NCBI RefSeq assembly: GCF_000165395.2
Contig: NC_010575.1
Span: 2,031,001 to 2,095,000 of the forward strand
Direction: 5' to 3'
DNA: 64,000 nucleotides
Source of the DNA: Babesia bovis T2Bo
Taxonomy: Eukaryota; Apicomplexa; Aconoidasida; Piroplasmida; Babesiidae
Shown here: one piece after another, positions 8,486-52,073 of the stretch
Numbering within the stretch: the first letter of the stretch is position 1
Layout: the number at the start of each line of letters is the position of its first letter
The notes under the pieces: generated by a model
What the model was told of the DNA's origin: nothing
Seen by the model: the letters and a program-made list of their open reading frames with translations, nothing else
Databases searched by the model: none
Program-made: the position numbers and the translations under genes

Positions 8486-11400
8486 TCATTTTGTGAGTTT
8501 TAGCAGTGTTACCATGCGGTCTACCAATGGTTGAACCCCCGAACGGTCACCAGACATCATATGTTCAAGCTGTTCCAGTATTGACTGAAATTCAGTATCG
8601 TCCTGGATCCACTCTATAGAGCCCAGTGTGGAGGAAACTGTACCGTAGGCATATATGGCCAAGGTAGGATATGGGTGACAGAGGAACCATAACATTGTTT
8701 TCAGCGCGGTATGGGTGACGTGATTAGTATTACCGTGTTCATACAGAGCATGTAGACACTTGAAAATGGCCTTGAGATAATTGTAGTTTGCTGACTGCCG
8801 CGCCTCGGTGGATAACATGTCCACCAGCTGATCGCTGGTGTCCATAACCCTGTGAGATACAAAGTATCTTGTCGCTGATGCTACATTTATGCATGCCTTT
8901 GAGTTATTTCCCGTGATACTAGTTTGGTAATACTCAGTAACGTATAACAATACCATGTCACGTAACCGTAGAACACGGCCAGTAGATGACTTAACCATTT
9001 CTTCACCATGCTGCTTGAGGAAGTCTACAATAACATTATCCAGTGTATCCTCGTTCCATAACTGTTGGTTTGACCCAACGGATAATAGGTTCACTAAGGA
9101 GTGCACCAACAACTCGGAAAACCTAGGCGCATATAGTAAATACATGAATTGCGATGTGCATAATGGCGACAGTGAGTACCCTGGGATCCTGAGAGACACA
9201 TGTGAAGAGGTTCTAATATACGTATCGTCGTCATTATCAGCAGACTCCAGTAACTCATCGATGTTAAACGATTGTGCTACATGCCAGTTAATATTAGTAG
9301 CAATTACCGACATTAACTTATGTTCCTGTAAAACTCCTAATGAATACACATGATCATCTTTTTGTGCACTGGTTTCTTCAGTAAGCACCGATTCGGTAGA
9401 TACTTTTTCAGTTGTAACACCCACAACTTTTTCAGGTTCCGGCTTTGCTTGAGAAGAACAGTGGCTCCTGTCAGCCTGTAATGCTAGTTCTGGAGCAGAA
9501 TCATGTGGCGTCATGACCTTGCGATTTCCCACAGCATCGCTTGTAATGTCTTCTAGTGAACTTTCCTTTCCTGGCGACCGTAAACGGTCTATACTGCTAT
9601 TAAGATCAACTGGTGCATTGGGATACACCGCGGTACGCGCTATACCGTATTCGTACTTTGTCCCATAGAATACACGTTTCCATATCCAACAGGGATCGAT
9701 TCTGAGTCCAGAGTCAAACAAATGAGCAAATAAAAACGTAGACCGTGCTCGAGTATTATCCAGTGGCTCGAGGCATACCTTGATTAAACAGGTAGCCATC
9801 CGGTATATATGCTCAGGCTTTATATGTTTGAGCAACTTGTTTCCCGGATTGTTTAAGATCGTAAGTAGATAACATATAGTCTCTATTGTTACCTCACGTA
9901 CCCAGGAACCAACGTCACCACGACTGTCAATTTCATAGTCCGATGAACCGTACTCCAAGGCTTCAATCAACATCTCTGTTGTATCCGAGGATATATCAAT
10001 CTCCAAAGTACTCTCCAATACATGTAATAACGATATCATGACATGCTGCCGTATTTGTGCGTCCCTAAATTCAGCCATGGAGTAATTCGTTAGAATTTCC
10101 CTAGAGAGTACTTGGATCAATTGCTCCCCGAATTCTTTGGACAATGATATTGGACACGCTGATAGCGACAGTGCGTAGCCACGCATAGCAGCTACATGTC
10201 CTTGTTTATCCACGAGGGAATCTATTAGGTACTGCACCAAGCGGCGTGATTCCATTATATCAGTGTTACATAGGTATATAAGCAGTGGTCTAAGAGCCTC
10301 AACGGCAGCTACCTGGACCTCAACAGTAAAGCTACGTATAGAGTCCTTAAGTATCGTTACGTAGTACCTCAAATCGTCGATATCCAGATGCAGGCTTTTC
10401 GTTGCCAGTGCTAAATTGCAAATTGACCTTACAAGTTCACATATCGATTGCCTGAATATGACACCGCCCTTTATCCTAAACATGTGCTGGCGTTCGAATA
10501 TTACGGGTACCTGCTTAATACGGTCAAACGGATCCTGTAACAATTCACCACAAGCAACCAGCCCATCGAGTATATGGGACAATGTACAAAGCGACCCGTG
10601 GATAATAGCCGGATTCTTTGTGCCAACGCATTCCAGGCAATGGTCTACAATCTCGATATATACAGGTATACCGTTACGCGTAGCCACCTGGCCATATGGC
10701 GTATTTACCAATGCTAGGCATATCCGAGCAATGGCTCGCGCAGCATACCTTCTAGTGGTCATGTCAGGGTGGTGTAACTTAGTACGTAGCAAATGGTCGA
10801 CCATAGATAATGTATAGAACCCATATCTAGCAATACGCTCAGACAGATCTACGAAAGCGTGCCTTCGGTTAGCCACAGAGAAGTAATCCATGATAACTAT
10901 TAAATCCAAGCCATGCGCTACATCACCAATACGGCCCACGAGTTCCTGGAATGCTGCGCAAGCGGCTCTACGACAGTTAATCGATATGTCGAATAACGAC
11001 ATGTTGACAAGTGACTTGCTGATGGAAACTATATGCTCTGGGAGTATGGCACTCTTGGGATAATGGCGAACAACCGCCCAGCATATATAACAAGAAGCGT
11101 CACGCACTCCACAACCTGCAGAGCCCTTACCACGCCACAGATCAAAGTCCAATGTCAACACCACGCAGTCCAGCACCTGGCCAAGCATGTTCGGATGCAG
11201 GATGCCGCCACGAAGTATCTCTGCGATAGCGAGGCAACCGCCATGGACAGCAGATTCACCCTTGACGAAACAACGCTGCACCCAGTCATACTGCTGCTGT
11301 ATCACATCTAATATATACTCTATAATCTGTTCATTCAGGTACATTGGCAGCTTAGTGGATATCCTGCCAATGGATTTCGCTGAGGCCCAGCGTACACGAA

Positions 11401-12808
11401 TATCACGGTCGACCAATGATATTAACAACTGCTCGACAATGCTCTCCACTCGAGGGTCCATTTCAAATTCAGCAACATCGTCCATGATAACTTCCGCGGT
11501 ATCAGCGGTCGATATCATTTTACGCAACTTACGACGATACCTTTGCGTCTGTGCTGATGGCGGCAGAATATGCAGAGCCAAACGCCCTATGCAGCCAGCT
11601 TTAAGCCTACGGCATGCGGATGATCCAGCAATATCGGAATCCAATAAGCAACGTGTTAATAACCCAAGATGAGGCGCAATGTCTTGACGTAACATGTGCT
11701 TCAACATCTGCTTAAGCACTGTAAGCACACCGATTTGTGCATGTTCATCTTTGGATAGTGCCACTGAATGGTTGTTAGCAAACATCACAGCACTATCCAT
11801 GATACCATCTTGTTTTGTGGGTGGAATCTCCCGAGAGACTAATGGTTTGTCAGTATTACCTGAAATCATTGGGGAGCTGTCAATGATAGACGCATTGTTA
11901 TGCAAATCTACAGTGGCTTCACTCTGTATCTCTGATCCAGGAGATAGTACATACGAGCAGTATGATAAGAATTCATGCAAACTATACTGACCAATATCAG
12001 GCCTGCCATAGAACGTAGACAACAGTATTCCGCAGGCGTCCCTGGCCTTGGATGATATAATTACGTAATGTATCGCCACCGATAGTATGCGCCTGACTAA
12101 CGTATTACTACCGCCACTCTCATCGCGCCATATAGTGTCCAACTCAAACGGTGTATAGACCAATAGTGATAACCATGACAAAAAAACATACTCAACACAC
12201 CACCGGCGATTTTCATAGCGCGAATGTGGCGACCTCTGTTCATGGGCACGTAACAGCTCGATTACTGAAATAACGGGAACTAGATAGCGCACTGCATTTG
12301 GGGCATATGCGAAACAACGACGTAGACCAACAACTTTAGCGACGTTGTATATATGATAACATATAAACTCCAGTCCTAACATGGAGTTGATGTTGTTAGC
12401 ACCTAGCACTATATCTGATAACACAGTATCCGATAATTGAATTAATTGCTCCAATATCGAAAATGCTTCACCTACGAGCAACTCCACATTGGAAAACATC
12501 AACCTTGGATTGTGCATATACTGCTCCAGAATACGTTCAAACTGGACTGTAGTATCGCTTAAAGTAGCTAATGCGTCTTCCTCCGTCTCTTTGGAGGCTA
12601 CATTCGATATTGATGATGACGCAACGTCGGCATCAGTGCCATCGGAAACATGATGTGCTGCCTCAGCGCCAACATCACACACTAATGATTTATCGGTACC
12701 AGGAAAGATTACAAGCCTTCCATGATGCCGTTGAAGCGATAGTAGACGCACAGACTCTTCGCCGTGCGAAAACTGTACCAACACGTGCTCAACATGGTCA
12801 AATGTCAT
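8486..12808 (-). CDS. TBCD: Tubulin-folding cofactor D (TBCD)
   Basis: A 1440-residue single-exon HEAT-repeat protein. TBCD captures beta-tubulin and works with cofactors A, B, C and E and Arl2 to assemble alpha/beta heterodimers. Diagnostic stretches include RWASAKSIGRISTKLP, HGGCLAIAEILRGGIL, VRDASCYICWAVVRHY, INCRRAACAAFQELVGRIG and DYFSVANRRHAFVDLSERIA, all in the order known from animal and yeast TBCD. The total length is longer than human TBCD (about 1190). The extra length comes partly from a polar low-complexity insertion near 9360-9620 (Ser/Glu-rich) and one near 11740-11940. Start ATG at 12808, no upstream in-frame ATG. Confidence 0.92.
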   Translation of the reverse strand: MTFDHVEHVLVQFSHGEESVRLLSLQRHHGRLVIFPGTDKSLVCDVGAEAAHHVSDGTDADVASSSISNVASKETEEDALATLSDTTVQFERILEQYMHNPRLMFSNVELLVGEAFSILEQLIQLSDTVLSDIVLGANNINSMLGLEFICYHIYNVAKVVGLRRCFAYAPNAVRYLVPVISVIELLRAHEQRSPHSRYENRRWCVEYVFLSWLSLLVYTPFELDTIWRDESGGSNTLVRRILSVAIHYVIISSKARDACGILLSTFYGRPDIGQYSLHEFLSYCSYVLSPGSEIQSEATVDLHNNASIIDSSPMISGNTDKPLVSREIPPTKQDGIMDSAVMFANNHSVALSKDEHAQIGVLTVLKQMLKHMLRQDIAPHLGLLTRCLLDSDIAGSSACRRLKAGCIGRLALHILPPSAQTQRYRRKLRKMISTADTAEVIMDDVAEFEMDPRVESIVEQLLISLVDRDIRVRWASAKSIGRISTKLPMYLNEQIIEYILDVIQQQYDWVQRCFVKGESAVHGGCLAIAEILRGGILHPNMLGQVLDCVVLTLDFDLWRGKGSAGCGVRDASCYICWAVVRHYPKSAILPEHIVSISKSLVNMSLFDISINCRRAACAAFQELVGRIGDVAHGLDLIVIMDYFSVANRRHAFVDLSERIARYGFYTLSMVDHLLRTKLHHPDMTTRRYAARAIARICLALVNTPYGQVATRNGIPVYIEIVDHCLECVGTKNPAIIHGSLCTLSHILDGLVACGELLQDPFDRIKQVPVIFERQHMFRIKGGVIFRQSICELVRSICNLALATKSLHLDIDDLRYYVTILKDSIRSFTVEVQVAAVEALRPLLIYLCNTDIMESRRLVQYLIDSLVDKQGHVAAMRGYALSLSACPISLSKEFGEQLIQVLSREILTNYSMAEFRDAQIRQHVMISLLHVLESTLEIDISSDTTEMLIEALEYGSSDYEIDSRGDVGSWVREVTIETICYLLTILNNPGNKLLKHIKPEHIYRMATCLIKVCLEPLDNTRARSTFLFAHLFDSGLRIDPCWIWKRVFYGTKYEYGIARTAVYPNAPVDLNSSIDRLRSPGKESSLEDITSDAVGNRKVMTPHDSAPELALQADRSHCSSQAKPEPEKVVGVTTEKVSTESVLTEETSAQKDDHVYSLGVLQEHKLMSVIATNINWHVAQSFNIDELLESADNDDDTYIRTSSHVSLRIPGYSLSPLCTSQFMYLLYAPRFSELLVHSLVNLLSVGSNQQLWNEDTLDNVIVDFLKQHGEEMVKSSTGRVLRLRDMVLLYVTEYYQTSITGNNSKACINVASATRYFVSHRVMDTSDQLVDMLSTEARQSANYNYLKAIFKCLHALYEHGNTNHVTHTALKTMLWFLCHPYPTLAIYAYGTVSSTLGSIEWIQDDTEFQSILEQLEHMMSGDRSGVQPLVDRMVTLLKLTK

Positions 12809-14031: not shown

Positions 14032-16107
14032 TTAGGGTACAATTAGTTTCCGCGATATGAATTCTATATTTCGCAAGGAAGTTTCGGCTTTTAGCCGATG
14101 AAGAAGGTGCTCAGTAGCCTCGAGGATGTCCCATACTACAAAATATTAAATAGACACTAGTCATCTTACCATACACAGAATCAAATCTGTATAGTTCCTG
14201 GTTAGCCCAGTATATAGCCGCTGTCTGCAGGAAGTATATATATTAACCGGAGAACATACCTGGATAGTCTGGATAGTGGCAGATTCACCCTCAAACAAGT
14301 CCTCAAATAAATCTAACCAGTACGCAGTTATCAAGTAGACTATACCCTCAACGTCAATGCGTATCTGGTCGTCAGAGTACCAAACATTACCCAACGGAAT
14401 GCGAACGTGGTCAATCCAACCAGAGCCATACTTGCGAACCATACGCTTAGTCACATATGGCTGGATGCCCTCACAAAAGGAATGGAATATTAGCAACACG
14501 TACTCCAATAGTTGAGATTGCGATAGTTCCTGTAAAAACGGACGAGTACGACGGTCACGAGCGGATACCAACGGTGGTTGAACTTCACAAAAGATTTCAG
14601 CACGGTCACATCGAAATTGCATTATACGACTCTGGAATAGTAAACGCTTTTTCTCTATACCACTCGGTATTGACGATCGTAGATATATACGCTCGTCAGG
14701 GCTGAAAACCTTAGCGAAACGCTCATTGCCAATGCCCCAATCTAGGTATAGTAAAAAGTCGTCACCTAACCTAGACGACACGCGACTCTTGTTGGCCATT
14801 GCAAACTTCAAAAAATGACGTGGGCTCTTTAAGTAGAATTCATTACCCACAGTAGAGCCGCCGACTGCAGGTTCACACGATTCTGCACTTTGAATACTTT
14901 CAGCTCTGGTTGATCCCACGTCAACTGACTCTGCACCATTCCAGTGATACTCCAAAAGCTCGCGAAGCACATCGACTACTGCATATTTACTGCGATCAGC
15001 AGGGATCCCGCTGCCTTGGACTGAGGTAACACGGCTAAAGTCATGAAACCAGCGTGAGTCCACAGGCATGGAAGCAAGGTCTATAAGCTTACTAGGTACC
15101 GATGGAGATATAGCACGAGCTGCCCAAATGTCAATGTTTGGAGGTGAAACGTTATACACATGAAATACCAAAGTAGCAGCGTTTAGTGTCTCAACATGCT
15201 TAGATATACAATAGGTACCATTTGAGTGGACTCCACTGGCGCCCATAGATCCTATAGACGGCTGATCCCAACTAAAAGTCAAGGTTCCACTCTCACCCAT
15301 AATGCCATAAATGCACCGACCACTGGTACCGCCAAAAAATCCATTACTACGCACACCGAACTCAGTTACGCAGTTTGGAGCAAGGTCCTCACTAGGGTAC
15401 TCAACCCAGTGGCCATCGTCAAGACGAGTGCCATTAGGAGATAAATCTAATTTTAAATGTTTACCACAGAGATTTACGATCCGGATTAAAAGCGAACGAT
15501 TTGTTTTCCTAAGACTGGGCAGCCATAAGTTACTCCCCTGCGTCCACGTAAAGTCATCAGGAAGTGCTTCATACTGATCGAAAGCCTGTATACCACCAGT
15601 AGGTAATTTAGCTAGGTTACCGCCATTGTGGCGCTTCAACAGTTCTTCTAAGCATTCCTTCAGGCCTTTAATGTATAAGCTGCCGTCGGATGTCTCCTGG
15701 ACACGAATTAAAAATGTCTTGCAAAAACGATTGCCAGTTGAGTTATCCAATTGATTGTGATGTACCTTGAAGATAACGGGACATGTAGTGTCGACGTTAG
15801 CGGTACTGCCAGTATCAAGTTGCGATTCCGGTACAAACACACCACTAAACACCTCTCCGCTGCTAGAACGGTCAAGACGCAGCGATAATATGTAACGAAC
15901 ACGGTTCAGTATCACACCATAGTTCAGTAAAAAGCGTAAACCGTTAAATGTGCGAGTAAACACACATGATAAAGTTACATCGCCACCAGGCAATAAGCGC
16001 TCTGGTAACCACGTTGTCCATGAACCATGGCGAATATTATGAAAATGACGGTGTAACACTACACTCGTCTCGTTACATAGACGAAGCTCTATTACCCTAG
16101 AGCCCAT
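14032..16107 (-). CDS. Double aegerolysin-like / Swt1-type HEPN protein
   Basis: Three exons: 16107-14260, 14224-14170 and 14135-14032; introns of 35 and 34 nt; 668 residues. Two beta-sandwich-like segments share a layout resembling aegerolysin/crystal-protein folds: residues about 3-90 (ELRLCNETSVV, HGSWTTWLPERLLPGG) and about 205-290 (DGHWVEYPSEDLAPN, GGTSGRCIYG, FSWDQPSIGS). The C-terminal about 110 residues resemble the Swt1-like HEPN domain (VTKRMVRKYGSGWIDHV, YLITAYWLDLFEDLFE, YWANQELYRFDSVYVW). The usual HEPN R...H pair is absent: the expected WAHQ reads WANQ (Asn624). No signal peptide is seen. Function unknown; the domain assignments are pattern-based and tentative. The stop lies 5 bp from the NSE1 ATG. 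Confidence 0.65.
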
Positions 16108-16144: not shown

Positions 16145-18219
16145 CTATGAAATAGACCTAATTAAACTCAAATCCAGCTCAAGGACAGTCACTGTGGTAA
16201 TATATATAAAATGTTTACTAATTTACCTGGGACATATATGTGGAACCGATGTACCACGTCAGGGTGAACCACACCCATTACACCCAAAGTGGCACCAGAT
16301 ACTGCTGAGCTCACAAGCTTTACACACCGACCTGGCATAAAGGCGTTGTCTAACATAAAGATAAATTAAAAACATACACCTACCATCAAAAGGCTCTAAA
16401 CGATACATGTGACGCCACTTCTCTGGAATTGGAATCTTAGACTCCCCTAGCTCCCAACGCTGATACTCACTGTAGAAGCCTAATTCGTTAAGCAGGGTTT
16501 CAGAGGCACCCTGAACTTCCTGAAACAGATGTTAGTTCAATCAAACGTCGCATGGAAACGTGTGATCAATATGATACAAACGTACCTCCAATCCAGCAGT
16601 TGAGCTGTTGGCATAGCCACAAGCAATATTGCAATTATTAACAGCTTGGACATCACTCTCATCAGATTGCCATACCACATCACCAACTTCAAATACCTGA
16701 ATCGGTAAACTGGCACTCCTGAGGTTAGATATGGTGTTTAGTATACCAGGCAGCAGTGATACACGACATGCTTCCAAATCTGATACCTTGGCATTTTTCA
16801 ATAGAACTGGACGTTTAGAACCTAATTTATCGGGTTTTATCCAACCCATGCGATCGTACATGTTAACAAGGGAGTCGAGAATAGGCATCAAAGTCTCCTT
16901 GTAACCACAACTAGATAGAACATCACGCACAGTACGCTTTAGGTATGTGAGTGGACGTAATCCACCACAATTAAATGATTCCTTAGCTATACGGTTGTAT
17001 CCATATGCTATAGCAATATCCTCGCCAAGGTCACAGGCATGTTGAATATCAGGACGGTTTATAGACACTACGGCCTCGACGCTGTCGGTCTCAGGACAAT
17101 GGCGCCCCTTAACCATCATGCGCTTTAGCAGTGAACAAACCTGTTGGCCATCGAGTGAAGGGACGCCAACAAGTGACCTGAAGTATGACATATCCCCGTG
17201 AAGAACACGCTCTGTTAAGTCAGGAGAGATAACCGTATTGTCGATGTACTTAGTATAGAATGGCTCCACAGTAAAAGGATGCTCACAATACTGTGAAAAA
17301 CAATAAACAACCATGTTTAAGCATATGCTCCCTTTAACACGATCTGTAGCAGTGACCTCAATGAGTATGTTGCGTGTATCCAGTGTTACCTTCGTAGCGT
17401 CCGAGTTAGTAATAGGAGGCCACGAACATACTTTGCCACTTGAATCGCGAAGCACAGGATACCGATCACAGTTTTCAAGGATCTTCAAATATGGCTGTGC
17501 AATGATTATTAAGTATATCATAGCATACCTTAAGATGACTGTTACCCTCACTGTATATGCGCATTAATTCTGAGGCTGAGTATTCACGATTACCATCGCT
17601 GAGAGGTGCAAATACTATATCATCCGGTTTCTCCAAAGAGTATACCAACGGCTCCGATATACAGTCCATGTCGTGAGTGCCAATGGCAGCCAGTGTCCTC
17701 TTACGACATAGATTCTGATGTAATTTGGTTTGTAATTCAATCAAGCTGTCATATCTCTGCTGAGTTAACTTGACACCACGCAAACAAGCGGCGAATATAT
17801 ACGGTCTTGTGAATTTCGACTGCAGCAATCAGCAAGGATGTTATTTGACCCACCTCTGGAACTGCCTCGATGTACGCAGTATCACGAGGTGTATCGACAC
17901 TGTATTTAACCTCGGGAAATCCTGAATCATTCTTGTATGCCAACAGAGCAGTGACCAATCCTTCCAGACATAAGAGATCGTAACTGCAAGGAATATAAAA
18001 AGATGAATACGACATACCGATTAGCAGGAATCTCAATCTTAACGACCTCGACTCCCTTTTCATCAATCAAGCACTCTTCATACTCAAGACCGAAGCTGAA
18101 GCATAGTTCATCAAGCTCCTCGAGACCTGTGACACATCAACACACTAATGGGAAAACACACTTAAATTGCCACCAAGGCGGCTTAGAAGCTCGACTTTAG
18201 GTACTGTAATAGTAGGCAT
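16145..18219 (-). CDS. PheRS-beta: Cytosolic phenylalanyl-tRNA synthetase beta subunit
   Basis: Eight exons: 18219-18162, 18126-18018, 17983-17854, 17819-17529, 17494-16586, 16519-16384, 16349-16227 and 16191-16145; introns of 35, 34, 34, 34, 66, 34 and 35 nt; 600 residues, the usual eukaryotic length. It forms the alpha2-beta2 enzyme charging tRNA-Phe. The start MPTITVPKVELLSRLGG, then LEELDELCFSFGLEYEE, aligns with the animal cytosolic form. B3/B4 editing and B5 regions follow (RPYIFAACLRGVKLTQ; INRPDIQHACDLGEDIAIAY; GYNRI), and the tail GVVHPDVVHRFHIYVP is diagnostic. An in-frame ATG 49 codons upstream (18366) is less likely as start because the conserved N-terminus begins at 18219. Confidence 0.93.
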
Positions 18220-46069: not shown

Positions 46070-49000
46070 ATGATGGAATGCGTACCTTCTCATTTTATGA
46101 CGGCACCTGTGCCGTGTGCCGCGCTATCAACTCATTTACTTTCGCATGAGAAGCTAAAGGAGTGCATTTTAATTTCTGGTCGCAATGCCAATGACAACCA
46201 GAATCGTCTTAACATTGTGTTAAGTCAGACAATTGATGTAAATTGCGATGGCGAGGATCTTCCACAATGGCAGATGCCGATTGCATCGAGTGGAGATTGG
46301 CTTCTTATGCAGCGTAATTTGTCGCCATGTGTAGTTTGCGTTCGTGACTGGCAGCATTTTGTAGTGGATGGAAACTACAACAGTCCAAGGGCAGAGGATT
46401 CCTCGGTGGAATCATGTGTGTCGTCATCGCCGAATACACCCGAAAGTTTTGCAAAAGTAGACACTGTGAGACATCTTAATGGAAATAACCGTGATGAGCT
46501 ACTTTACGGTGACCTGAAGCAATTGTCGGACCTGATAAAGTCGGATGTTGATCGTTGTATTGCTACTTATCGCCGCAATTTATTGGATAAAAGTCCGGTT
46601 TCGGGTAAGATAATGTTTTTGATTTTACTTCGTGAGGGAACTAAGAATGCACAGAAGGCTGTTAATGGGTTGAAGAACTTGAATCCAAGTGAAGTAGCGG
46701 CTATATGCGTAACTAGCGGTGAGAAAGACATAGAAAGCAAGGTATCGAAGCTTGAGACTCTGATTTACGACAACTGTATTTCCTACTATGAGCGGCGCAT
46801 CCACATGTTACAGAAAACTCTGTCTAAGGTCAAGCATAGTACAGGTTCAGATGTAGACGAGACCAGTGAGATCAATACCGCTATGATGTACTTTAAATTA
46901 GCTTACTTCCAGCAATTTATTGGCAATTTGAAGGAGAGTGTACAATGTTTATCGCAAGCATGGAATCACGTGGTTCCTGCAGCTATAGTTAACCCTTGTG
47001 AGGACTATGCCACGGTGGCGCTCTATATATCACTTCAGCTTGTAAGCGTTCATTTTCTCAACTCCAATATCGTAGATGCACTTACAACTGCTTTTGAGGC
47101 TGGATCTTTTTTTAAACGTATTTTATTCAAGCCCGATTCAGAGCCCTTGTACCATAACATTTGTTATCTGTTGTATCATTCAGTGGCTCTCCATCTAGAG
47201 CGTGCCAACGATTACAAGGAGTTGAAGGAAAATGACCATTTAAAGCACCATGCTGCTAACTTTGGTAAATGGGCCATTCAGCATTTGCTTAAATTGCGTA
47301 TATCGCTGATGTCAGGTGACTATAACTCATATCCTCGCAAGGTATTTGCCAATTTGTTATTTCGTGGTGACGATGATTTCGGGCATCTATATGAATCATT
47401 TAGTGAGGAATCCAATACAGGCACCGTAGAACAGCGACTGCACAATCTGGAGTCAATCACTGAGCAACTATTGGTCCGTCTTATGGATATAGTGTCAACA
47501 TGGAGTTGGTACAACTCTCTGCTTCAGGTAACTGAGCTGTTGGGTGACTCACTGTTATATTCATCAAGCTTCGATGACGCGTTCTTTATATACAATAATG
47601 TAGCTGAATCATTGGTCAATGGAACTCCACTGGATGCTGAATATCTGTTGAAACGGTGTTCGTCGTTAATTATAGCTGAGTCATTAAAGACCACAACTAC
47701 ATCTCGGTCAGCCCGAAGTATGGATTCTGAATCCGATGAAGAATCCATCCAGCTTCCCAATTACCACAGGTGTGCCATTACCATGCTATTGGCTGAACGT
47801 GCTCATTGTCGTATTTGGTGGTTCATATATCGTCGTATATTAATCAAGATATTAGTGAGCATTGACTTTATATTAGGTGTACCGCTTGATATCCCAAGTA
47901 CGTTACGATCACAGGGTAGTATTCCGTCAGTAATTTGGCAGAGACTATCGAATTGCGAGCCACGATACTTGACTGGAGGCCTTGGATATAGTATAGAACT
48001 TGATAAACGTGATTACGCGATGATTTTATTGAAAGGTATAATGACATTATGTTCCACCGGTGATGTTAATGTTGACTTTGCTTCGTTATGCCATCGCCTG
48101 TTTATGAATTCTCCATTGCGCGATGTCACCACGTCAGTACTGTTAAGCAAATACCACACTCCCTTCTATATGATAGGCCAGGTTAATCGAAAGGAGGATA
48201 GCATATCCACTCAGCTTCAGCTGGTTGTAACATTCCATGTTGATTTGCCCTTCGCTATAGATATCAATAAAGTCAGCATTTGCACATCCATTGGCACATT
48301 CCTTTTTGACATTGTGAAAACCGTTGAAACACCCAGTCAAGTAGAGCTTTACATAAAGGCTTCCGGGTGTAGCGAAGATGCTGTTTCTCAAGGTAGTGAT
48401 ATCCAAAATTCTCAAGAATATGATCGATATAACGAATTTCAGCAAGACTATCCGAGTAATACATCCCATATCATGGGATCAATGCTTCAAGGGGAAGGCG
48501 ATACCACTGGCTTTGCTGAAGCCAGACACCTCGAGGGTGATAGAAGAGTCATTTTGGCTATAACGTGCCCTCCTGTTAACAACCAGTTCATGATAAATTG
48601 CTTTAGCCTGCTTGGTGTCAAGCTGCACTGGATAAAGCCGCTGTATGAAGGTGCATTTCTGGATATCGCTTGTATAATACCATCCTTGGTAAATCAAACG
48701 GCGGGCATTACTCGTTTAGATGAACCCCTATTCGAAGCTGACTCAGTGAAGGATACATTCAGGCTATTGCATAACGTTGGATATGTTGGTTCATCGAGCT
48801 CATTCTTGAAATCCGAAGAGACACTATCAATGACTATGGCAGATCCCAGTAGTGTTGCGCTCCGTAGCTCCATGTGTGAGACCATTATGGAACTGACAGC
48901 TCTGTCACCGATACCATACGGTTTGCGTGACTGGGATAACAGCGACACGGACACCTATTCTTGGGGTGCATATCGCATGTTTGTAAATCGCATATACTTT

Positions 49001-50516
49001 AAAGTTTTTCTTGGCAGCATTGTTGAGGGCCACGTCGCTCCTGTATCCTGTGTATTGTTGTACAACAAGCAGATTATAGGGTCTGATAACTTGGGTCGAA
49101 TTCGATTTTCTGTGGACGTCTCTTGCAGTGCTAGCTCTCATATATTCTATGCGCTCTGTCGTGACGATGCTAGCAACTGTGGTATCATGCGCCAATGCGT
49201 GAATAACCAATTTGTTTTTAGTTTGAATGAGTTTGCTGATGCTCAATCATTTGAGATAGCTCCTAGGTTGGACTCTCTCGGTGTTTCTGAGGTTGATGCC
49301 GTTGTACCAACACTGTTTGCTGACTCTCCGGATTTCAACTGCAGTATAAATGAGGATATGAACAATTTCTTGGAATTGGCTAAACGTGACTGTAACATTG
49401 GCATCGTTTACATTTACGGGTTGCTTAAGGTCCTGTCTCACGGTCAGACCAACGTGCAGTTTAGTTTAAAGATGCAGCCTATGCTAGGTCACACTTTGAA
49501 GGCTGTGGAATCAGAGCTACTTGTAGTCACTGACGTATCACAAATTCAGGTACACGAACCTATCAGTATGGCTCTTGGAGAGGAACATGTATATGACAGC
49601 ACCAATGGTAGCCATATCCGTATGCTCAACGTCCAGTTGGTCAACAAGAGCCCTCTGCAATACGATATCGACACTGTCCGATTAGTTTACAATGATGAAC
49701 TTGACATTGGTATGTCTATTGTATCTATCATATCATATGTATTAGAAAATGAGAGTCTTTATGGATTCTGCCGACTATTGGAATATTATCAGGAGCTGCA
49801 ATTTATGCATATGTGCCCTGAATCTGCCAATTCAGTGGAGGCTCAATGTATACATTCGGTAGTACACCCGGAAGCCTTCCCATTCGACCGTTTACAGACA
49901 TGCTTCTTGGATGTTATCACTGTAAGCGATATTACACAGCATTCATTACGATCCAGTGTAACATTGTAATATCTAACTCTAAGGAAGCCGCTGAAGTACA
50001 TATATCAATTAAGCACGCAAGTACTGTGTTTTTAGGCCAACCTTTCGAGGTGATTGCCAATATTACTAACACAACATCGCATACCCTGGTAGGTTTTGTA
50101 CGGTATATCTATATTGGTACCATGGATATTCTAGCATTCATGTACTAGAATCAATGGTACATTGGTATAAATATTTCCCTGTGTGTAAAATATTTGTATT
50201 ACACATCGTAATAATATACTTTCAGGACTATATAGTAAGCATTAAAAGCAGGGAAAACAAGGACGGTGTGTTCTCAATTGCAGGCGCGCGAGTAGCCGAG
50301 ATGATTGCGCTTCCTATGTCTACGCGGTGTGTTCGTTGGATGCTAGTGCCAAATAAGTAGGTCCTCAAAGTCTCAAATATATTTTACAGGTGTGGTCATC
50401 AAATGATACCGCGAGTCGATGTTTACCAGAAGAGAAGGCTGACCCTTCCATGTGACAACTTCTCTTCAGCGCCGTCGATCGTATACGTAACACCGCAGGC
50501 CGTTGACAATAGATAA
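46070..50516 (+). CDS. TRAPPC11: TRAPPC11-like TRAPP complex subunit
   Basis: Four exons: 46070-49921, 49957-50088, 50226-50356 and 50390-50516; introns of 35, 137 and 33 nt; 1413 residues. TRAPPC11 (foie gras) is a subunit of TRAPP complexes that activate Rab GTPases for ER-Golgi traffic. Residues about 230-360 match the foie-gras region: CISYYERRIHMLQKTL, then MMYFKLAYFQQFIGNLKESV, then CLSQAWNHV. The C-terminal exons encode a beta-rich segment (AAEVHISIKHASTVFLGQPF) like the terminal Ig-like part of the family. Two polar insertions occur. ATG 46070 is chosen; the frame opens five codons earlier only at TTG. Overall similarity is low outside these blocks. Confidence 0.75.
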
Positions 50517-50957: not shown

Positions 50958-52073
50958 ATGGCAGCTTTCAGCAAGGCTACTGGCATTTACAGCGCCAAGC
51001 TCGGCCTCTACATGTACGCCGTTGCTCTTCAGATGATCATTGGTTACTTCATGATCCTTTGCTCACCAAACAAGTTGAACATTGGTGGTCTTGTTCGCGC
51101 TCGTAGCGTTGAGGACATTCAGAACGTCGGATTCGATGTTATTCAGGGTGCTGGTGTTGTACACATTCTTTTCGCAGTGCTCACTTTTGCTCTTCTCATT
51201 TTGGCACACTTCGTTACTAGCTGCTTCAAGATTCCCATGCTTATTGTTACCATTGTGCAGACAGCCTACTGCTCATTCACTGCTGGTGTTTGCGCACTCT
51301 ACCTCCAGCGTGGTTACGACAACATTACTCAGACCATTCAACTCCTTGCCAAGCAGGCTATCGGCACTGTTGTTCCTTCTTTGAACCAGTTGTTGGTTGA
51401 CAACCGTAACATGCTTTACGGTATTGGTATTTTGGCTGTTATTGCTACTTCCTTCTTGCAGAAGGCTCAGGTTGTCAAGGGAACTGACAGCAGTACTCAG
51501 GTTATGGTTGTAATTCCCTGTGTTAGTCTTGGTTTGGGTATTGCCTTTGCCCTTACTGCTCCTTGCAGGGACTACAGGACCTTCACTCTTGGTTTCTTCT
51601 GGGCTTTGGCTTGCATTATTGGTGATGTCATCAGCTCTGTCAGCAGATTCTTCTGCTTCAAGCCATTCAAGTTGTTCATGTTGGCTGTTTACGCTGGTAT
51701 TTGTTTGTTGTCTGTTATTACCATTGGTGTTTGCTCCAAGATTTACAGCAATGGTAAGATTGACCTTTCTGGTTACCTCGATGTTGTACACGGTACCATC
51801 AAGGCTGCTGCTGACAAGGCTAGTGAGCAGATTAAATACGACGATGTTGACAGGTACATTGGCAAAATCACTACCCGTTACACCGATGAGGAACTCAACG
51901 TATTCATGGGTAACGGTATTTTCCTTTTGGTTGTTGTGATGCTTTCTATTGTTTGCCTTCTTTTCGGCGTTCTTGCTCTCTTCTACTCTATCTTCAGGTT
52001 CTTTGACAGGAGCCGTGACTCTGACGAGGCCAATGTTGGCAGCGACAAGGCAGTCAAGGTCGTCGTCAGCTAA
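50958..52073 (+). CDS. Polytopic membrane protein, strongly biased codons
   Basis: A 371-residue single-exon protein with about eight predicted membrane helices (near residues 14-36, 66-88, 92-112, 150-167, 182-202, 208-226, 236-260 and 325-350) and a loop of about 65 residues between the last two (SGYLDVVHGTIKAAADKASE). The C-terminal tail is short, charged and cytosolic-looking. No family is recognised; it could be a lineage-specific piroplasm membrane protein. Codon use differs from all neighbours (nearly only AAG for Lys, many GTT, GCT, CTT, GGT, TTC), which suggests high expression. The start context AAAATGG is strong. Only 74 bp separate it from the next gene. Confidence 0.85.
   Translation: MAAFSKATGIYSAKLGLYMYAVALQMIIGYFMILCSPNKLNIGGLVRARSVEDIQNVGFDVIQGAGVVHILFAVLTFALLILAHFVTSCFKIPMLIVTIVQTAYCSFTAGVCALYLQRGYDNITQTIQLLAKQAIGTVVPSLNQLLVDNRNMLYGIGILAVIATSFLQKAQVVKGTDSSTQVMVVIPCVSLGLGIAFALTAPCRDYRTFTLGFFWALACIIGDVISSVSRFFCFKPFKLFMLAVYAGICLLSVITIGVCSKIYSNGKIDLSGYLDVVHGTIKAAADKASEQIKYDDVDRYIGKITTRYTDEELNVFMGNGIFLLVVVMLSIVCLLFGVLALFYSIFRFFDRSRDSDEANVGSDKAVKVVVS

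Follow-up and report, generated by a model that had tools for sequence, protein, structure and literature searches.

A Babesia bovis gene with the aegerolysin-HEPN architecture of PfAegerolysin: a corrected gene model and a proposed role at the inner membrane complex

The window analysed here, a 64,000-nucleotide stretch of the Babesia bovis T2Bo genome, carries on its minus strand, at 14032-16107, an intact three-exon gene whose product, obtained by joining the exons by script, has 668 residues (coding length 2007 nt, ending at 14032). Exon 1 (14260..16107) starts with an ATG at 16107 and is an open frame encoding residues 1-616. Intron 1 (14225..14259; 35 nt, GT...AG) separates it from exon 2 (14170..14224), which encodes residues 617-634 plus one base and holds the motif WANQ, and intron 2 (14136..14169; 34 nt, GT...AG) is followed by exon 3 (14032..14135), which encodes the end of a HEPN domain, the final 34 residues, and the stop. 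A first-pass annotation, made from the DNA letters of this window, had given the same coordinates and the same length, and the spliced product of 2007 nt reproduces both exactly. Directly upstream on the same strand (16541-17551) lies part of a phenylalanyl-tRNA synthetase beta gene with several exons, in which the B5 and core-domain matches are above cut-off and the B3/4 match is below it. The next same-strand gene downstream (product MASEAGIQLF...) has its apparent ATG at 14026-14024, 5 nt past the aegerolysin-HEPN stop codon, and the 152 residues encoded by its first exons, as joined by eye, gave no Pfam match at E 1.

Three protein searches returned P0001-P0004 as the sole relatives, two of the searches scoring only 7998 candidates that shared most words and the third 22 candidates; since so few candidates were covered, the lack of Theileria, Plasmodium and Toxoplasma members reflects a limit of the search and is not evidence of absence. 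In the B. bovis genome itself (8.23 Mb), the protein query and the HEPN_Swt1 profile each gave one match. The ATG of the B. bovis product aligns with the starts of P0002, P0003 and P0004, the alignment of the spliced product with P0002 and P0004 is gap-free at the intron 1 junction, and the string YWANQE is invariant in all four aligned sequences. P0001 is the database B. bovis protein A7APN0 (653 residues), which is identical to our product over residues 1-634 and then departs. Because P0001 reads through intron 2, and because the spliced 34-residue tail is identical at 23 of 34 positions both to P0002 and to P0004, in each case gap-free, the HEPN domain is probably incomplete at its end in the database model. 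The tail of the B. ovata protein P0003 also diverges in the alignment. P0001 carries no precomputed PF18731 label, and the missing HEPN end may be a cause of this; it is not the whole reason, as P0003, likewise cut short, has the label. What is new in this work is the corrected B. bovis gene model, judged by comparison with relatives: it would supply the last 34 residues that the database protein probably lacks, and with them the terminal part of the domain through which the Plasmodium protein binds VPS13.

Two aegerolysin-like domains were placed towards the N-terminus, both on the minus strand: domain 1 at 15736..16107 (residues about 1-124) and domain 2 at 15148..15501 (residues about 203-320), the latter with WDQPSIGS at 15247-15270. 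The second matches PDB entry 4jox both as a single sequence (phmmer, E 2.5e-6 at residues 208-300) and in a profile search (E 8.2e-9, profile positions 205-323), and 4jox is counted as an aegerolysin in the available text of PMC9505663. Domain 2 is thus aegerolysin-like, as judged by similarity to a solved aegerolysin, which bears out the first-pass description of this segment as resembling crystal-protein and aegerolysin-like folds. It lies outside the Pfam family as curated: Aegerolysin PF06355 found no match at E 10 in the product or in its aligned relatives, and its search of the B. bovis genome found none, being equally silent in every control genome. For domain 1 there was neither a Pfam match nor an aegerolysin match by sequence among PDB entries. 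The internal repeat between the two domains is not significant, with 74 of 1000 column shuffles reaching the observed score and an hhalign P of 0.41 in the expected register. The aegerolysin-like nature of the first segment is therefore weakly supported by our own searches, and the pair is stated in print for the family.

Each motif quoted in the first-pass annotation occurs once in the product: HGSWTTWLPERLLP at residues 27-40, DGHWVEYPSEDLAP at 231-244, WDQPSIGS at 280-287, YGSGWIDHV at 560-568, WLDLFEDLF at 597-605 and WANQ at 622-625. A twofold G-x-W...P...L-x-P layout had been proposed from the first two of these. Both segments are present, and their glycines, tryptophans and first prolines (G28, W30, P35; G232, W234, P238) are invariant in all four aligned sequences, as are W280, Q282, P283, G286 and S287; P40 and P244, the prolines that close the L-x-P element, are not invariant, and this part of the layout is therefore not conserved. 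The middle region (14518..15099, minus strand; residues 337-530) gave no Pfam match and no convincing PDB match, the profile search offering only designed repeat proteins there (E 0.02). Within it, residues 337-420 are the least conserved (26/84, 32/83 and 27/80 identical), and identity is higher over residues 421-530 (54/110 to 68/109). A figure legend in PMC13036008 names an unknown domain in the Plasmodium protein, the available text giving no position for it.

The C-terminal segment, described in the first-pass annotation as resembling a Swt1-like HEPN domain, is supported as such by sequence. It spans residues 541-647 (14098..14487, minus strand), is interrupted by both introns, and matches Pfam HEPN_Swt1 (PF18731) with 30.4 bits (E 5.2e-7; profile positions 3-112 of 115) when searched as a piece alone, above the 27.5 cut-off; within the whole protein the score is 26.2 bits (E 1e-5), slightly below it. 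All four aligned sequences match the profile at E 10 or better, the best at 3.9e-8. Of the two profile searches proposed in the first-pass annotation, that for HEPN_Swt1 therefore succeeded, while that for the aegerolysin profile found no match. The HEPN domain is the most conserved of the compared segments (73-75 of 104 residues). In a predicted orthologue model this region is mostly helical (pLDDT about 50-70), and the weak fold matches of the model include 4nqf, a HEPN domain protein, and Csm6. The likeness to Swt1 and to bacterial Swt1/Abi2-like HEPN proteins covers nearly the full profile; the B. bovis product differs from Swt1-type proteins in that the Pfam search found no PIN domain and that the Rx4-6H motif is not conserved. 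An NCBIfam search added one spurious match only (E 0.11). The HEPN region contains no Rx4-6H string in the B. bovis product or in P0004, three in P0002 and one in P0003, and the domain thus has no RNase motif conserved across the four aligned sequences.

PfAegerolysin of P. falciparum (PF3D7_1364000), presumably the same gene as MAL13P1.321, to judge from the shared architecture and from gene nomenclature, resembles the B. bovis product at both ends: an N-terminal aegerolysin pair, of which the second is clear and the first weak in B. bovis, and a C-terminal HEPN domain of the Swt1 group without the catalytic motif. The first-pass annotation had put this combination forward as undescribed and uncharacterised. 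We reject that reading, as the architecture was described in 2013 by Anantharaman et al. (PMC3710099), whose available sections call it conserved throughout Apicomplexa and call the HEPN domain inactive, and the P. falciparum member was studied experimentally in 2026 by Guillen-Samander et al. (PMC13036008). From the architecture and the printed statement of its conservation, we infer that the B. bovis gene is a member of the apicomplexan PfAegerolysin family. In the available text of PMC13036008, where PF3D7_1364000 was given the name PfAegerolysin, this protein consistently ranked first by enrichment near the C-terminus of PfVPS13L1, a bridge-like lipid transfer protein, and it localises to the inner membrane complex (IMC). 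The PfVPS13L1 PH domain is brought in through HEPN-L, the HEPN-like domain of PfAegerolysin, and two point mutations abolish this recruitment. With E740 and Q777 as its published interface residues, the P. falciparum protein must be longer than the 668 residues of B. bovis; as a tentative guess, Q625 may be the B. bovis counterpart of Q777. Among the papers listed by our literature searches there was no further one on the gene beyond PMC3710099 and PMC13036008; Plasmodium, Apicomplexa, Babesia and HEPN do not occur in PMC9505663. The term HEPN is also absent from PMC13298984, a 2026 report on Toxoplasma VPS13, which is likewise outside the six papers matched for aegerolysin and Toxoplasma together.

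Based on these findings, we consider it likely that the B. bovis product is a cytosolic, peripheral membrane protein of the IMC, with the aegerolysin pair on the IMC and a catalytically dead HEPN domain that docks a VPS13-type lipid bridge. The two N-terminal domains would hold the protein on the growing IMC membrane, while the HEPN-like domain, as shown in P. falciparum and by extension in Babesia, would bind the PH domain at the bridge's receiving end, so that lipids could flow from the ER into new daughter-cell membranes. The HEPN domain would then serve as a protein-protein dock and not as an RNase, and the aegerolysin pair as a membrane-side docking platform and not as a pore. A crude hydropathy scan is consistent with such a location, with no hydrophobic N-terminus and no likely transmembrane helix (best 19-residue mean 1.05). 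The gene would be the piroplasm version of a malaria-parasite protein that links a lipid bridge to forming daughter-cell membranes, and the same role in Babesia, if it proves true, would make it more likely that growing the IMC through a lipid bridge is an ancestral apicomplexan trait. A point against this proposal comes from Toxoplasma, where a VPS13 at the ER-IMC contact is reported to have a different IMC partner, TgDAT1 (PMC13298984, available sections).

The partner comparison looked for a VPS13 with VAB, ATG2-C and PH regions. The VPS13_N profile (cut-off 80) matched the B. bovis genome at C3:399963-400484 with 118 bits and at C1:475735-476424 with 80.1 bits; a third match, of 11.9 bits, is far below cut-off. 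By profile similarity B. bovis appears to have two VPS13-type genes, either of which is a candidate counterpart of PfVPS13L1. The C3 open frame, which ends near C3:389,860, has 3543 residues, and 2946 of these gave a VPS13_VAB match of E 5.9e-4 (18.9 bits, below the 22.6 cut-off); the same profile run over the genome found no match and was equally silent in the controls. Within its last 800 residues this frame matches VPS13A (9yg5; E 6.9e-17, positions 539-689), which leaves about 110 residues after the match, the expected place of a PH domain. The match of the C1 frame to VPS13A is weaker (E 0.0035). No PH domain was matched by sequence. The C1 frame comprises 4832 residues in the genome search and ends near C1:461,970; its examined part (L006:1166-9901) gave nothing in Pfam below E 0.07.

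Two points count against a host-directed effector, in which the aegerolysin pair would aid passage through the vacuole membrane while the HEPN domain, itself inactive, would bind host RNAs: the early exit of Babesia from its vacuole after invasion, and the hydropathy scan of the B. bovis protein, which found neither a hydrophobic N-terminus nor a TM-like stretch. Such a role was proposed for the Plasmodium member in PMC3710099, as far as its available sections go, from the architecture and blood-stage expression, and it is further weakened by the later localisation of the P. falciparum protein to the IMC, where it has a VPS13 partner (PMC13036008); we regard it as very unlikely here. We see similarly little prospect for a protein that still binds or cuts parasite RNA through its HEPN domain, as in Swt1. 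The name of the Pfam family speaks for it, as do the R-x4-H strings of P0002 and P0003, one of which stands at the same aligned place in both; at that place, however, the B. bovis product and P0004 have N for H, and in the low-confidence orthologue model the place precedes a short strand, whereas the HEPN RNase motif sits at the end of helix 3 according to the available text of PMC3710099, in which the HEPN of this family is called inactive. A nucleic-acid role, raised in the first-pass annotation, is thus not favoured, given that Rx4-6H is not conserved in the four sequences and that the P. falciparum domain binds a PH domain.

A true pore former, with the aegerolysin pair inserted in the IMC membrane, possibly alongside a MACPF protein, to form a pore that helps lipid delivery, is somewhat less remote, although we still hold it to be improbable. 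The available text of PMC13036008 describes the aegerolysin domains as pore-forming and suggests that they are coordinated with the delivery of lipids. MACPF-matching pieces do exist in B. bovis, 14 of them, all above cut-off, a count of pieces and not of genes. Apicomplexan MACPF proteins are secreted, and the B. bovis aegerolysin-HEPN protein has no evident secretion signal in the crude hydropathy scan, so that the membrane would separate one from the other. Moreover, the aegerolysin OlyA6 requires a MACPF partner for cytolysis and has no such activity alone (PMC10366546, available sections), and in binary pairs the aegerolysin is described as the membrane-side part that recruits the larger partner (PMC9505663, likewise). 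For these two reasons we prefer the docking reading over the term pore-forming.

The docking platform may be carried one step further. In the mushroom system pleurotolysin B is recruited by a dimer of OlyA6, as reported in the accessible part of PMC10366546, and for this reason we tentatively raise the possibility, which we think doubtful, that the tandem aegerolysin domains mimic a membrane-bound aegerolysin dimer: a lipid-reading dimer on the daughter membrane would recruit a VPS13 bridge in place of a pore protein. In binary aegerolysin pairs the larger partner is a pore protein, whereas in Babesia it would be the lipid bridge; if so, Apicomplexa would have turned the two-part docking logic of a toxin inward. 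Aegerolysins of the Cry34Ab1 and ostreolysin types (4jox, 6myi), the first of which domain 2 matches, are small, single-domain proteins, whereas in B. bovis the unit shares a chain with a HEPN domain, in a protein with no evident secretion signal.

Elsewhere in the window, the plus-strand open frames at 46070-49969 (1299 residues) and 50958-52073 (371 residues) gave no Pfam match at E 0.01, and a single minus-strand open frame of 1440 residues at 8486-12808 encodes Tubulin-specific chaperone D.
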